DNA from: Bacteroidia bacterium
Lineage (GTDB): Bacteria > Bacteroidota > Bacteroidia > JAIBAJ01
Direction of reading: 5' to 3'
Length of the DNA stretch: 36,327 nt
Assembly (NCBI GenBank): GCA_019695265.1
Contig: JAIBAJ010000023.1
Span: 1-36,327, forward strand
Shown: in pieces, positions 8,910 through 35,866 of the stretch
How the letters are laid out: each line of letters begins with the position of its first letter
How positions within the stretch are numbered: position 1 is the first letter of the stretch
Translations under genes and position numbers: made by a program
The notes under the pieces: model-generated
Database searches by the model: none
Seen by the model: only the letters and a program-made list of their open reading frames with translations
What the model was told of the DNA's origin: nothing

Positions 8910-9055
8910 TTGGCGGGTCCCATTCGCTCCAAACTTTTCGGTAAAACCTAAAACTTATCAAGGCTCATGGTCGGGCTATACGTTCCAAGTCCTCGCCCCG
9001 AAAGGGTTCGGGGCTGTGGGCTTTCCACTTCTATCCCTACCCGGGGTGCAAGCCC
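8910..9055 (+). repeat. Dispersed GC-rich repeat, copy B (subtype 2)
   Basis: It begins TTTGGCGGGTCCCATTCGC, contains GGCTCATGGTCGGGCTAT and AAGTCCTCGCC, and ends CTATCCCTACCCGGGGTGCA. The central hairpin has perfect 7-bp arms CCCCGAA (8996-9002) and TTCGGGG (9007-9013). It is the left member of a convergent pair with copy C. Confidence 0.85.
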
Positions 9056-9765: not shown

Positions 9766-10347
9766 ATGTTTGACTTTGTAGAAGGTAAAATAGCTGAAAA
9801 AAATCCTGCATTTGCGGTGATTGACTGCCATGGCGTTGGTTATTACCTTCCCATTTCTTTGAATACATTTTCACGAATTCCGGAGAGTGGAACCTTTAAA
9901 TTGTTTACCCATTTTGTGGTGAGGGAAGATGCCCAATTACTTTACGGATTTGCTGACAGGGAAGAAAGGCAATTGTTTCGACTTCTGATATCGGTAAATG
10001 GAGTAGGAAGTGCCACTGCATTGATGATACTTTCAGCCTTGCCACCAGCCGAGCTGATAGGCATCATTGCATCGGGAAATGATGTTGCATTGCGGGCTAT
10101 AAAAGGAGTTGGTCCTAAAACTGCCCAGCGAATTATTATTGAATTAAAAGATAAAGTTGGAAAAACAGGTATTGCTGCCGAACTTTTCCCGCTATCCCAA
10201 AATAAATCAAGAGAAGAGGCGTTATCGGCCCTCGTTACCTTAGGATTTAACAAGCAAAATGTGGAGAAATTCCTAGACAAACAATGGAAGGAAAACCCCA
10301 ATGCACTTGTTGAAGACCTGATACGACTTGGACTTAAATCGCTATAA
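9766..10347 (+). CDS. ruvA: Holliday junction branch-migration protein RuvA
   Basis: At 193 residues this is the usual length of RuvA. Domain I (OB fold) opens MFDFVEGKIAEKNPAFAVID and has the VGYYLPIS strand. Domain II has two helix-hairpin-helix motifs, VNGVGSATALMIL and IKGVGPKTAQRIIIELKDK. Domain III, the small RuvB-contacting helical bundle, is SREEALSALVTLGFNKQNVEKFL. RuvA binds four-way junctions as a tetramer and loads the RuvB motor, which is not in the window. It lies 11 bp ahead of sprA; I recall the ruvA-sprA pairing as common in Bacteroidota, with no evident functional link. Confidence 0.96.
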   Translation: MFDFVEGKIAEKNPAFAVIDCHGVGYYLPISLNTFSRIPESGTFKLFTHFVVREDAQLLYGFADREERQLFRLLISVNGVGSATALMILSALPPAELIGIIASGNDVALRAIKGVGPKTAQRIIIELKDKVGKTGIAAELFPLSQNKSREEALSALVTLGFNKQNVEKFLDKQWKENPNALVEDLIRLGLKSL

Positions 10348-10358
10348 AAAATTGAAAA

Positions 10359-13300
10359 TTGGCAGCACAAAAAAATAATCTTTCTCTTGTTCCTGTAATA
10401 GTGCTTACATTGGCTATTGTGGCAGTTTCTGCTGCAAAAAATCCAAAATCCTATCACAGAATTAAACGGAGTTATGAAAGTTTGATGGAAAGTGTGGCAG
10501 TAGACACGCCTGAATCGGATCTTCATTATCCCTTTCCGGATTATAACATTGACCCCAATCCAACGGTTGCTCCCAGCGGCATGCATTTAAATCCACCTTC
10601 GAATGTAAAACACGAAGTTGAATTTGACCCTGAAAGCGGCAATTACAACATTACCGATAAAGTGGGCAATATGGATTACCGTCCGCCAACCTACCTCACT
10701 TTTGACGAATATCAGGAATACAATGCCCAGCAATCATTAAAAGATTATTGGAAAAAAAGAAGCCAGGCGGAAGATTTGGCCAATCAAAAACCTCTGATTC
10801 CCAAGCTTAAAATTGATAGCAAATTATTTGAAGATATTTTCGGCAGCAACACCATTTCGATTAAGCCACAGGGTACTGCAGAACTCATTTTCGGCTTTAA
10901 CCGATCTAAAATCAACAATCCGAGTTTACCTATTAAACAAAGAAAGGTAACTACCTTCAACTTCGACCAAAAAATTCAGCTAAACGTTACCGGGGAAATC
11001 GGAGATAAAATCAAGCTCAATTTTAATTACAATACGGAGGCTACTTTTGATTTTGAAAACCAAATAAAACTTGGTTACACCGGAAAAGAGGATGAGATAA
11101 TTCAAAAAATTGAATTGGGTAACGTGCAAATGCCAACCAACGGAACCCTTATCAATGGTAGTCAAAGCTTATTTGGAGGTAAAGTAGCTTTGAAATTTGG
11201 GAAATTAGGAGTTACCGGATTATTTGCACAACAACGAGGCAAATCTCAAAACATTCAAGTTCAGGGCGGTTCCCAAATTACCCAATTTGATATTCCGGGC
11301 GATTCGTATGAAGCTTATAAACACTTCTTCTTATCGCAATATTTCAGAAAGAACTATGACAAATGGTGTAAGGATATCCCATTAATCGGATCACCTATAA
11401 ACATTACCCGAATAGAGGTTTGGGTAACTAACAAGCAAAGTTCAACTGTTAACACCAGGGATATCGTTTGTTTTATGGACCTTGGAGAAAATCCGGAAAA
11501 CCTGCACAACAGTACCGTTGGACTTACCTTGCCACAGCCTCAGAATACCGAATATCCGGGCAACAAAACCAACTACCTGTATGATAAAATGTATGGATTT
11601 GGAGATGGGATACGAAAATCAGAAAACATAATTAATACCCTCTCTCAATACACCGTTAACGGATTTATCAATTCACAGGATTATGTTTCGGTAAAATCGG
11701 CACGTAAGCTGGTTGAAGGAACAGACTTTACTTACAACTCCCGGTTAGGGTATATTTCCTTATCTCAACCCCTCAACCCGGATGAAGTATTAGGGGTTTC
11801 GTATCAATACACCATTGGAAACGAAGTATTTCAAGTGGGTGAATTTTCACAAGATGTTTCAGCTTCTACCAATACAGGAACAACTACCACAACCGTTACC
11901 CAAGATGCCATCATCTTAAAAATGTTAAAATCAAATTTGATTTTACCCAAATTGCCCACTTGGCATTTGATGATGAAAAACGTTTATAACCTGGGTGCAT
12001 ACAGTTTAAACAAGGAAGATTTTCAATTAAACGTTATTTACGACAATATTAGCACAGGTACCAAAATCAACTTCATACCGGAAGGTAAGCTAAAAGGAAT
12101 TCCATTGATTCGGGTGCTAAACACCGACAGCCTAAACTTTCAGCTCGACAAAACGCCGGATGGGGTATTTGATTACATTGATGGAATAACCATTAATTCC
12201 CAAAAAGGAACAGTTATTTTTCCTGTGGAAGAACCATTTGGTAGTTATTTACGTGAACAATTTGGTGATACACCTGCCGATACAGCCTTAGCCAGCACCT
12301 ATGTTTTCGAAGAATTATATGATTCAACCCGAACAAAGGCTATTCAAAATCCTTTGAAAAACAGGTTTAGACTGATGGGTAGTTATAAATCTGCCTCCGG
12401 TTCCGACATTTCCCTCAATGCCACCAATATTCCTCAAGGTTCGGTTAAAGTTACTAGTGGAGGAGTTCAATTGCAAGAAGGAGTAGATTACTCCGTTGAT
12501 TATACCTTGGGTCGAGTTAAAATTATTAATCAACAATACCTCAATTCCAATCAGCCTTTAAATATCAGTTTGGAAAGCCAATCTTTGTTCAACATTCAAA
12601 CCAAACGACTCATAGGTACACGGTTGGATTATAAGTTTTCTAAAGATTTAGCCGTTGGTGCAACTTTAATGAACCTTCAGGAAAGACCACTGACCCAAAA
12701 AGTAAATATTGGAGACGAAGCTGTTTCCAATACAGTTTGGGGGGTAGATGGAAATTGGAGAACCGAATCCAGGTTATTAACCAAGTTGGTAGATAAAATA
12801 CCTTTTATCAATACCAAAGAAACCAGCACCATTAGTTTTGTAGGTGAATTCGCCCAAATAATTCCGGGAAATGCTCCTGCTATTGGTAAAGACGGAACAT
12901 CCTACATTGACGATTTTGAAGGATCCCAAACCCTCATCGACATTCAAACACCACAAGCCTGGACACTGGCAAGCACCCCACAAGGACAACCGACACTTTT
13001 TCCGGAAGCAACAGTGCCTGTAAACGATATCCGTTATGGAATGAACCGGGCCCATTTAGGTTGGTACCAAATCGATGCTTCCGTTTTCTTTCAACAAAAT
13101 TTACCGAATGGAGCAACAGTTAACGGTTTAAGCGATAACGACTATCGTTCCAACCATTATTCCCGTCAGGTTCTTGAAACAGAGTTGTTTCCAAACAAAC
13201 AACCCCAATATAACCAGGTAATGAATCTCAACACCCTCGACCTTCATTTTAATCCGAAGGAAAGAGGTCCTTACAATTACGATGTATTGCCACAGCCTGG

Positions 13301-32721: not shown

Positions 32722-32875
32722 TTTGCACGGACCTCTCCGGGTAGGGATAGCAGTGGAAAGCCCACAGACGACCGCGGCGTTAGCCTAGGGAGGCGAGGAC
32801 TTGCAACGGATAGCCCGGACCTGAGCCTTACCAAAATTCGTTCAAAATATAAAACTACGGGCGAAGGTACCCGCA
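32722..32875 (-). repeat. Dispersed GC-rich repeat, copy G (subtype 2)
   Basis: On the minus strand it starts ATGCGGGTACCTTCGCCCG, has GGTCCGGGCTATCCGTTGCA, AAGTCCTCGCC and CTGTGGGCTTTCCACTGCTA, and ends TCCCTACCCGG. It is the most diverged copy, but all blocks are in order. It ends about 80 bp before the UVR/AAA cassette. Confidence 0.82.
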
Positions 32876-32954: not shown

Positions 32955-33332
32955 ATGGCAAATAAAATCACCTTTTTAGTTTACCAGCGTAATCCTGGTG
33001 AATTCAACCTTTTTACTGCAATCAACCTGGACGAACTTTTGTATGAAGGGAAACTGTGCAAAGTTCAAGTTTCTGAAGAGCTAACTGCTCAACTTTCGGA
33101 ACTGACCTATTTAAAGAACAAAGCCTGCCAAAACAAACAATATGAACTTGTTGCCAATTACCGCGAACAAGAAAAACGTTTAAGTTACCAGGTATTTGGA
33201 CAGCGGATACCGCCTAATTTCAGCACCACTTTAGTACTATCGAAAGATGGAACCGATTACTTTTTTGCGGCTCCTACCGAGGTCATTTACAACCTGGAGT
33301 CGAGATGGAGTTTTCAAAACCAAAGCAATTAA
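32955..33332 (+). CDS. Small UVR-motif protein (paralogue 1 of the cassette)
   Basis: A 125-residue soluble protein with no signal peptide. An N-terminal region ITFLVYQRNPGEFNLFTAIN precedes a UVR (UvrB/UvrC)-like helical hairpin at about 47-76 (LSELTYLKNKACQNKQYELV, then ANYREQEKRL). The C-terminal strand LVLSKDGTDYFFAAP follows. UVR motifs mediate protein contacts in UvrB-UvrC and in ClpC with its adaptor McsA. The protein is about 38% identical by eye to the product of 34497-34925. The frame extends to a TTG at 32934, but ATG 32955 begins MANKITFLVYQ and is preferred. It precedes the AAA+ gene by 26 bp. Biochemical function unknown. Confidence 0.8.
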   Translation: MANKITFLVYQRNPGEFNLFTAINLDELLYEGKLCKVQVSEELTAQLSELTYLKNKACQNKQYELVANYREQEKRLSYQVFGQRIPPNFSTTLVLSKDGTDYFFAAPTEVIYNLESRWSFQNQSN

Positions 33333-33358
33333 TTTACACACACCTCAAACTTACCTAA

Positions 33359-34483
33359 ATGAAAGACGAACTGGACGATTTATACTTACCCGACCTTAGC
33401 TTATGCACTTCGCCGAATCAATTGGTGGAAAATCAGAAGATCTTCCCAGGCGATCTGTTCAACTCGATATACAATGGCTATCTCAATCCATTTTCATTGT
33501 ATACCTATTATTTCAGCAGAATTCCCAACCTCATTCCTATTGGCAATCGCAACTGCGGGATGTTTTGCACCCAATTTAAACGCCAGTTTCAGAGCCAAAT
33601 CTATCAGGTTCATTATTCGAAAGAATTTGGAAAAAATGATAGCTATCCAAAGTTCGCACAACTCTTCTACTTCCTGAGCAACGATCTCATGATTCAAGTT
33701 GATTTTCAAACGAATACAGTAGAATTTTATTACTCCTCCACCTCGCTTCAGGTGGTCAATCAACTGATTGGTTTGGCAGAAAAGTATCCTAAAAACCAGA
33801 ATGAAAATCCTCAAATGCATGTACTGGTATCTACTAACCACGGTTTAGATACCTTGCTTACAGATTTGGAAAAAACCGAGATAAACCTTGAAAAATATTA
33901 CAACGATGATTTTATTGAAATTCACCAGCACATTTTATCCCGCCTGGCCCGAAGAAATGGTCGCGGACTGGTTTTACTTCATGGGCAACCTGGCACGGGA
34001 AAAACAACTTACATCAGACACTTGTTATCGAACATAAAGAAAAATGTTCTTTTTATTCCGGCATCCATGGCCAGCCAAATTAACAATCCTGAATTGATGT
34101 CGACACTGATTCAATTTCCAAACTCCATTGTGGTAATCGAAGATGCTGAAACCCTATTAACAAGCCGAAGCCAAAACCAGGACTCTCCTGTTTCAGCCTT
34201 ATTAAACCTGGCCGATGGCCTATTGGCCGATGCTTTGAAAATTCAAATCATCTGCACGTTTAATATCGATCTTTCAAAAATAGACCATGCCTTAACACGA
34301 AAAGGAAGGCTAATCGCAAGGTATGAGTTTAAAGAACTTGCGCTTGAAAAATGCAGGATTTTAGCTGAAGAAAGGCAACTAAACATGGAAATTAATCAAG
34401 CCATGACCTTGGCAGCTCTTTTCCATGCAACTCAGCCGGAATTTGCAACTTCTGCCAAACGAAAAACAATTGGATTCAACTAA
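33359..34483 (+). CDS. AAA+ ATPase of the UVR cassette
   Basis: A 374-residue protein with an uncharacterised N-terminal domain (about 1-185, aromatic-rich, NPFSLYTYYFSRIPNLIPIG) and a C-terminal classic AAA module. Walker A is GQPGTGKTT (209-217); Walker B is SIVVIEDAE with Glu261-Asp262; sensor-1 Asn302 is in IICTFN; HALTRKGRL (310-318) matches the ALLRPGR arginine-finger box of classic AAA and Bcs1-type proteins. No protease, nuclease or membrane segment is visible, so it is probably a remodelling or chaperone-type ATPase. It sits between two paralogous UVR-motif genes (26 bp and 13 bp spacing), which are candidate adaptors or substrates. The closing KTIGFN indicates an intact end. Confidence 0.88.
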   Translation: MKDELDDLYLPDLSLCTSPNQLVENQKIFPGDLFNSIYNGYLNPFSLYTYYFSRIPNLIPIGNRNCGMFCTQFKRQFQSQIYQVHYSKEFGKNDSYPKFAQLFYFLSNDLMIQVDFQTNTVEFYYSSTSLQVVNQLIGLAEKYPKNQNENPQMHVLVSTNHGLDTLLTDLEKTEINLEKYYNDDFIEIHQHILSRLARRNGRGLVLLHGQPGTGKTTYIRHLLSNIKKNVLFIPASMASQINNPELMSTLIQFPNSIVVIEDAETLLTSRSQNQDSPVSALLNLADGLLADALKIQIICTFNIDLSKIDHALTRKGRLIARYEFKELALEKCRILAEERQLNMEINQAMTLAALFHATQPEFATSAKRKTIGFN

Positions 34484-34496
34484 AAATCAACCATTT

Positions 34497-34925
34497 ATGA
34501 TTGGAACTAAGACCTCTGCAAATTCCACCAATATTACCATGAATTCAAATGAAAAAGTTCTATCTAACAGACCAAAACAAATGGTATTCCTGATTTACCA
34601 AGGTCCAGAATCAGAATGCAATTTATTCACCACCTGGAATATAGAAGATTTAGCGACCCAGGGTTTTCTTCGAAAAAGAAGAGTCCCAACCGAATTAACA
34701 TCACAATTGCAACAAGTTAGCGAACAGAAACTTCAGGCTGTTAGAAACCAACACTATGAACTTTCTGCCAGTTTTCGTGATCAGGAACGAAAACTCTTGA
34801 ATGAGATTTGGAAAGAATTTGTACCCCAAGGTTATACCAGCGAATTAATCCTCAGTAGAAATGAAACAGATTATTACTTTGTGGCACCTTTTTCTATTCT
34901 GTTTCAGATGAAAAAAGGGAAATAG
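34497..34925 (+). CDS. Small UVR-motif protein (paralogue 2 of the cassette)
   Basis: From ATG 34497 this is a 142-residue soluble protein. Downstream of a poorly conserved N-terminal tail it repeats the architecture of the first UVR gene: MVFLIYQGPESECNLFTTWN, the UVR-like hairpin LQQVSEQKLQAVRNQHYELS followed by ASFRDQERKLL, and ELILSRNETDYYFVAP. I count about 41 identities over about 109 aligned residues with the first paralogue. The frame runs back to 34425 inside the AAA gene; ATG 34497, 34539 and 34581 are alternatives, and 34497 keeps a normal 13-bp spacer. The WYL gene follows within 11 bp. Divergent rather than recent duplication. Confidence 0.78.
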   Translation: MIGTKTSANSTNITMNSNEKVLSNRPKQMVFLIYQGPESECNLFTTWNIEDLATQGFLRKRRVPTELTSQLQQVSEQKLQAVRNQHYELSASFRDQERKLLNEIWKEFVPQGYTSELILSRNETDYYFVAPFSILFQMKKGK

Positions 34926-34936
34926 CATTGCACCAA

Positions 34937-35866
34937 ATGTCAAAACGCTCCTACCTACAACGTTACCTCCTGATTTTAAGAAGACTCAAAAACTATCCCT
35001 ATTCCAGTTTTGAGGATATAAGTGCATTTTTGGAGGAACAAGGTGCCATGTTGGTTGAGGATGGCAAAATGAATTCCTTTCTATTTTCAAAACGCACCTT
35101 TCAACGCGACATTCGGGATATTTATGAGCTATTTGATATCGAAATCACTTATTCCAAGGCTCAAAGAGGCTACCATCTTCCTATCTTTAATCAGACCAAC
35201 AACTTTTCTCAACGAATTTTAGATGCCTTTGGTGACTTAGAATTGCTCAAGTTTAGTTCCGACATTTCACCATGCATTCAGTTTGAAGGAAGAAAAGCTT
35301 TTGGCCAGGAGTTTATTCCCACCATAATCGAATCCATACAAAGCAAAAAGAAACTAAAATTCAGTTACCATAAATTCTTCGAAAAACATGAATCTACAAG
35401 GGTAGTTGAACCATTTTTACTCAAGGAATTTAAGAACAGATGGTACTTATTGGCCAGTGAACATCCTTCTGAACCTGTAAAAAGCTTTGGTTTGGAAAGA
35501 ATCCAATCGGTTGAAATTACCGATCAGCCCTGCGAAATGACCAATTCCGGTGCAATTGCCGATAAATATATCAATTGCTTTGGGATTATTTGTCCGGAAC
35601 AAGGTAAACCTTACGAAATCGTATTGGCATTTGACACCTTTCAATCCAAATATATCCAAACTTTACCGCTGCATCCATCCCAAACTTTGATATTTGAGAA
35701 TGAGTCGGAAGTCCATTTTCGATATTATTTATACCTGACACCCGATTTAATCATGGAAATTTTATCCTTTGGCGATACGGTTGAAGTACTATCTCCACCC
35801 GAACTTCGCCATCAAATACAACAGAATTTGGAAACTACTTTATCGTATTACCAAAATAAAGCCTAG
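34937..35866 (+). CDS. WYL-domain transcriptional regulator
   Basis: A 309-residue cytosolic protein. The N-terminal winged helix (about 5-80) has the recognition-helix segment FSKRTFQRDIRDIYELF and the wing KAQRGYHLP. The central WYL domain (about 130-200) contains KFSYHKFFEKHESTRVVEPF and the signature Trp169-Tyr170-Leu171 in NRWYLLASE. A C-terminal WCX-like extension runs to about residue 305 (LTPDLIMEILSFGDTVEVLS). WYL domains bind ligands, including nucleic acids in some cases, and such regulators are frequent beside defence and stress loci. The frame also begins at TTG 34928; ATG 34937 is preferred. It is the last gene of the UVR/AAA cassette and may control it. Confidence 0.9.
   Translation: MSKRSYLQRYLLILRRLKNYPYSSFEDISAFLEEQGAMLVEDGKMNSFLFSKRTFQRDIRDIYELFDIEITYSKAQRGYHLPIFNQTNNFSQRILDAFGDLELLKFSSDISPCIQFEGRKAFGQEFIPTIIESIQSKKKLKFSYHKFFEKHESTRVVEPFLLKEFKNRWYLLASEHPSEPVKSFGLERIQSVEITDQPCEMTNSGAIADKYINCFGIICPEQGKPYEIVLAFDTFQSKYIQTLPLHPSQTLIFENESEVHFRYYLYLTPDLIMEILSFGDTVEVLSPPELRHQIQQNLETTLSYYQNKA

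Follow-up and report, generated by a model that had tools for sequence, protein, structure and literature searches.

Four tightly packed genes in a Bacteroidia genome bring together two small proteins with a UVR motif, a AAA+ ATPase and a WYL-domain regulator, and the AAA and UVR parts look like separate modules, each of which pairs with WYL regulators. AAA-WYL and UVR-WYL neighbourhoods recur far above chance, often beside nuclease or restriction genes, and the window (the whole stretch of DNA that was analysed, 36,327 nucleotides) is one variant of them in which UVR proteins fill a variable slot. Because its parts recur in this way in other Bacteroidia, the cassette probably works against stress or phages. 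Our preferred interpretation, which we hold tentatively and rate somewhat short of probable, makes it an accessory module for conflict or stress, regulated by the WYL protein, in which the UVR proteins would serve as adaptors resembling the middle (M) domain of ClpC.

Four same-strand genes form an operon-like cassette

The four genes lie on the same strand, are packed operon-like and have the coordinates and intergenic gaps (26, 13 and 11 bp) reported in a preliminary description of this DNA (Table 1). The length of uvr2 is counted from the ATG at 34497, and a further in-frame ATG lies upstream at 34425, overlapping the AAA gene. Alignment of the two UVR proteins gave 37% identity over 112 aa (E 5e-29), indicating that they are paralogues, in line with the figure of about 38% that had been estimated by eye; DNA repeat D1 of the window corresponds to this paralogy. 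With the Pfam UVR model, uvr2 scored 24.4 bits (above the 21.5 cut-off) and uvr1 17.6 bits (below it), and uvr1 was also a profile match. The identities given earlier to the other two proteins were borne out by Pfam matches to AAA (52.7 bits, E 7.8e-14) and to WYL (50.6 bits, E 2e-13) and WCX (39.9 bits, E 5e-10), respectively. The WYL gene is the only PF13280 match in the whole genome, and a Pfam search of residues 1–120 of its product for a helix-turn-helix domain gave no match. As had been noticed before, there is no nuclease or toxin within the cassette.

Table 1. Features of the window and gene arrangement at other loci with a UVR gene
Feature	Position	Strand	Description
uvr1	32955-33332	+	125 aa; short beta elements on either side of a UVR helical hairpin (about residues 36-87)
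BCS1/YjoB-like AAA ATPase	33359-34483	+	374 aa
uvr2	34497-34925	+	142 aa; UVR hairpin helices 65-83 and 87-108
WYL-WCX regulator	34937-35866	+	309 aa; final cassette gene
Flavo-1-like RNA element	32736-32824	+	RF01705, 30.5 bits, E 0.011, below gathering score of 42; just upstream of cassette
Second Flavo-1-like RNA element	8965-9045	-	RF01705, below gathering score
L205			WYL-UVR
L207			UVR-WYL-methylase/HATPase-receiver-HsdM-HsdS
L209			WYL-161-UVR-AAA+/M41 protein
L210			UVR-225-WYL
L212, L213			WYL divergent from UVR
L215, L216			WYL-cargo-UVR-UVR-like
L208			GmrSD-UVR, two bases apart; no WYL
L218			UVR-HsdM-YhcG nuclease; no WYL
L221			UVR by McrC; no WYL
L214			UVR adjoins RhuM; no WYL
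L225			UVR; WYL 2.1 kb away, same strand
L224			UVR; type I RM-like locus with caspase-like domain (by eye)
L226			UVR; neither WYL nor RM-like locus

The remainder of the window is mostly housekeeping, with no defence island. A repeat pair had been described directly before the cassette; the Flavo-1-like RNA element there makes up at least part of it and may explain it. Comparison with defence databases produced only generic WYL and weak AAA matches in PADLOC, which matched the cassette to no described anti-phage system, and NCBIfam names no system for these genes. Within the open-access library that we searched, no paper contained both "UVR domain" and "WYL domain". The preliminary description had read the four genes as a candidate undescribed system. 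No second locus with the order UVR-AAA-UVR-WYL was found in any other genome searched, and apart from the window, L004 is the sole genome that has this AAA gene close to a UVR gene (at a distance of two genes), so that a conserved four-gene system was rejected. What stands of that reading is a WYL-controlled AAA/UVR unit in a stress or defence setting, consistent with a nearby WYL gene in 13/43 AAA loci and 10/19 UVR loci.

The AAA protein is predicted to be a soluble BCS1/YjoB-like ATPase

The AAA protein consists of an N-domain (about residues 44–170) and a classic-clade AAA domain with Walker A (GQPGTGKT, 209–216), Walker B (VIEDAE, 259–264) and an R-finger region; an RKGRL motif lies at 314–318. 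A profile search of the PDB placed it in the classic AAA clade beside AFG2, BCS1 and CDC48. The best Foldseek matches of its AF2 model (pLDDT 85) were BCS1 (E 6e-15) and Bacillus subtilis YjoB (E 8e-13), with Foldseek and VIA alignments that cover residues 30–367 and a Z score of 14.9 that ties with AAA-only matches. Because these alignments run into the N-domain, the novel N-terminal domain that had been proposed for this protein is not borne out. The membrane anchor of mitochondrial BCS1 is missing (the maximal 19-residue hydropathy, 1.36, falls inside the AAA core), and in the absence of a transmembrane-like segment we file the protein as BCS1-like and not as a BCS1 translocase. On this modelling, the cassette ATPase is predicted to be a soluble BCS1/YjoB-like protein, which shares the AAA core and the overall model with BCS1, YjoB and the phage BCS1 orthologues but differs from BCS1 in lacking the hydrophobic segment and in sitting with WYL and UVR genes.

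A class-wide search found the AAA family in 42/395 Bacteroidia genomes, from 35 of 197 genera. It is also common in large phages, which likewise argues that the N-domain is not novel: in IMG/VR a relative was encoded by 156 of 600 candidate stretches, from which 80 loci were kept, and the family is present in huge uncultured phages as well as in PA5oct and XacN1. An earlier paper had already noted orthologues of BCS1 in jumbo phages (PMC7824862). Within the stretches examined, none of the 80 viral loci had a WYL or UVR gene next to the AAA gene. The gene order around the phage copies is conserved (L131, L145 and similar loci) and comprises, with names given by eye, a DNA methylase-like protein, in some loci a NusG-like protein, a 100-aa protein, the AAA protein, thioredoxin-like and glutaredoxin-like proteins and structural genes.

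The UVR motif is similar to the ClpC middle domain

UVR hairpins also serve contacts other than those of ClpC, such as UvrB-UvrC and McsA-McsB, and zinc-binding CXXC motifs are a feature of McsA. When a profile of 12 UVR sequences was searched against the PDB, the ClpC middle domain was matched with an E-value of 3.7e-10, UvrB with 0.013 and McsA with 0.39. The motif had earlier been connected both with ClpC and with UvrB/UvrC; the likeness to ClpC held, and a DNA-repair reading of the UvrB/UvrC type is disfavoured by these E-values. The fold match likewise favours the ClpC M-domain over UvrB/UvrC: in the AF2 model of uvr2, which has a modest pLDDT of 68.5, the hairpin superposes on the ClpC M-domain with an rmsd of 1.1 Å over 41 columns, and the Foldseek E-value is weak (about 1) because the hairpin alone matches. 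A Tyr is invariant in 12/12 UVR sequences at an aromatic position that we take to match F436 of Staphylococcus aureus ClpC, placed by the pattern at the hairpin tip and the S. aureus sequence. In S. aureus ClpC, F436 at the M-domain tip holds the inactive resting state, and ClpC that has lost it becomes active and toxic (PMC12583610). The M-domains of Bacteroidia ClpC show the same pattern as the UVR mini-proteins, and the host genome encodes its own ClpC with an intact M-domain. Judged by sequence pattern, the UVR motif appears to copy the ClpC middle domain closely, down to the aromatic residue at the F436 position. The cassette UVR proteins share this pattern and aromatic with the ClpC M-domain, to be compared also with the ClpC adaptors MecA and McsA, but are stand-alone proteins with extra beta elements, and neither uvr1 nor uvr2 contains a CXXC of the McsA type.

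AAA and UVR genes each recur with WYL regulators

A WYL gene lies within five genes of the AAA gene in 13 of 43 cellular loci, and in 9 of these 13 it belongs to the subfamily of the window's regulator and is the first to fourth gene after the AAA gene, on the same strand. The genes between or beside the two are variable and include a DnaQ-like exonuclease (RNase_T), GmrSD, PDDEXK_4 and small unknown proteins. Cassettes that have no BCS1/YjoB-like AAA can likewise end in this WYL subfamily, for example L103, where a 612-aa AAA protein is followed by an exonuclease, two DUF262-like proteins and the WYL protein. A second AAA type of 561–704 aa, unmatched by the window AAA, heads cassettes whose final gene is of this WYL subfamily (L103:1764-3602, L108:8903-10588 and L110:17068-19182). 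One possible shared cargo is a DUF932-like protein (by eye), which is encoded in an AAA-WYL locus (L078, about 9900–10750) as well as in a WYL-UVR locus (L225:5359-6234).

UVR proteins other than ClpC are rare. Single-protein searches with uvr1 and uvr2 returned only each other, together with weaker ClpC matches and a few short open reading frames, through which stand-alone UVR proteins of 52–67 aa were reached; profiles built from these found more (Table 1). From the UVR loci we left out ClpC itself, an LRR-like protein (L223) and, judging them to be housekeeping, two loci (L211 and L227) in which the motif ends BFN-like proteins, named by eye. L217 was scored negative because its UVR gene was not recovered by the ORF caller. 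An 814-aa neighbour of the UVR gene in L206 is restriction-enzyme-like by eye but has no Pfam match. A phage origin of the UVR proteins was rejected, the IMG/VR search with the pair having returned no relative and PHROGs no match.

Genomes with UVR loci carry 0 to 3 PF13280 genes, mostly 1. Using a UVR model that was selected without regard to WYL proximity, we found the UVR gene within 6 kb of a PF13280 gene in 9/16 loci, against 0.03 expected for random genes (P 6e-21). As a control, restriction genes of the same genomes were within 6 kb of PF13280 in 4 of 47 strong N6-methylase matches and in 0 of 20 GmrSD matches. The difference between UVR and restriction genes was significant (Fisher 1.7e-5; 2e-4 once the window and one genome of a sister pair were removed), although these P-values are guides only because the loci came from several sampling steps and relatedness was corrected only roughly. 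A further sample of 87 genomes added three usable UVR loci, one with a nearby WYL gene, which brings the total to 10/19 loci within 6 kb; the WYL gene is usually the only one in its genome. In L215 and L216 the WYL proteins match Pfam weakly (as the reading frames were cut, 19.6 bits for L215 and WCX only for L216), and in the genome search both regions scored just over the cut-off. Several UVR loci without WYL sit in restriction loci, and part of the UVR-WYL association may come from shared islands.

Some of these loci have features of their own. In two sister genomes (L215:4751-5507 and L216:8167-8923), a divergent WYL gene has a UVR gene and then a UVR-like gene downstream of it, an arrangement that resembles the pair of the window. 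The AAA+ protein of L209 (2233-4311), which adjoins UVR and WYL genes, shows an unusual AAA-peptidase combination of ClpB D2-small and Peptidase_M41 domains. C-terminal UVR motifs are found on proteins with a uracil-DNA-glycosylase-like fold (by eye) that have no Pfam name (L213:6514-7362 and L222:2191-3102), and a caspase-like protein (by eye) inside the type I restriction-like locus of L224 (1572-3071) also bears a UVR motif.

Discussion

WYL control of defence operons is already known (PMC9122588, PMC9122589, PMC9122601, PMC4012209), and the WYL proteins CapW and BrxR regulate such operons (PMC9122588, PMC9122601). The cassette regulator shares the WYL and WCX domains with these proteins and has relatives that adjoin restriction and nuclease genes. 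It differs from them in position, being encoded by the last gene whereas BrxR and CapW stand in front of the operon, and in having no N-terminal wHTH match in Pfam. Similarly, the cassette UVR proteins resemble those found within or next to Bacteroidia restriction loci of the type I RM, GmrSD and McrBC kinds (L207, L208, L218 and L221), but those loci carry nucleases or methylases and the cassette has neither.

In the module that we favour, the WYL protein would bind a nucleic-acid-type ligand arising in infection or DNA damage, and expression of the operon would shift. Both UVR proteins would dock as adaptors on ClpC middle domains by homotypic UVR contacts and would either deliver a client, for example a protein of the invader or the WYL protein itself, or lift the resting state of ClpC. 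A folded client, perhaps a UVR protein or its partner, could be remodelled or extracted by the BCS1-like ring. Against this module we count that the full cassette is unique, that it contains no nuclease or toxin and corresponds to no PADLOC system, that its surroundings are mostly housekeeping, that UVR hairpins serve other contacts too and that a nearby WYL gene is missing from half of the UVR loci.

Alternatively, the UVR proteins could serve the BCS1-like ATPase of the cassette, as its substrates or adaptors, in a self-contained machine that makes no contact with ClpC. The flanking of the AAA gene by two UVR genes speaks for such a machine, as do the UVR gene beside the peptidase-domain AAA+ protein of L209 and that near the BCS1-like AAA of L004. 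We nevertheless consider it unlikely: UVR sequence similarity points to ClpC, and UVR is not an obligate AAA partner because a UVR gene is close by in just two of the 43 AAA loci, those of the window and L004. It is also doubtful that the UVR protein partners the WYL protein itself, either as an anti-repressor or as a handle that ClpCP uses to remove the repressor, with AAA proteins and nucleases as interchangeable outputs. UVR genes do accompany WYL proteins of different subfamilies with different outputs (type I RM, PDDEXK_4 and AAA+), but no WYL gene is near half of the UVR loci and the gene order is variable.

An operon that serves proteostasis or stress in general and plays no part in defence, pairing a BCS1/YjoB-like chaperone with ClpC adaptors, would fit the likeness of the AAA protein to YjoB and BCS1, the mostly housekeeping surroundings and the fact that WYL proteins also run DNA-damage responses (PMC10693628). 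The sporadic distribution of the AAA family, its copies in phages and the restriction and nuclease genes that adjoin its relatives make this quite improbable. Least credible is a chance assembly of unrelated accessory genes in a shared island. The exact cassette is unique and accessory genes cluster anyway, but its genes are tightly spaced on one strand, UVR-WYL proximity exceeds the restriction-gene control and AAA is followed by WYL on one strand in 9 loci.

The cassette, which we continue to read as an accessory WYL-regulated module, belongs among the WYL-regulated cassettes, and the link between UVR and ClpC would be the more novel idea if shown. A bolder extension, to which we assign a low probability, is that stand-alone UVR proteins of Bacteroidia are immunity-linked modulators of ClpC, that is, WYL-controlled mimics of the M-domain that would activate or redirect ClpCP in infection, with the window adding a BCS1-like remodeller. 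BCS1-like AAA proteins, noted so far in phages and mitochondria, are now placed inside bacterial cassettes with nucleases. The guarding of defence operons by WYL proteins is known, and the steps between signal and output are often unclear; if the proposal is true, bacterial immunity would be tied to regulated proteolysis through the recurrent pairing of WYL regulators with small proteins that copy the regulatory domain of ClpC.
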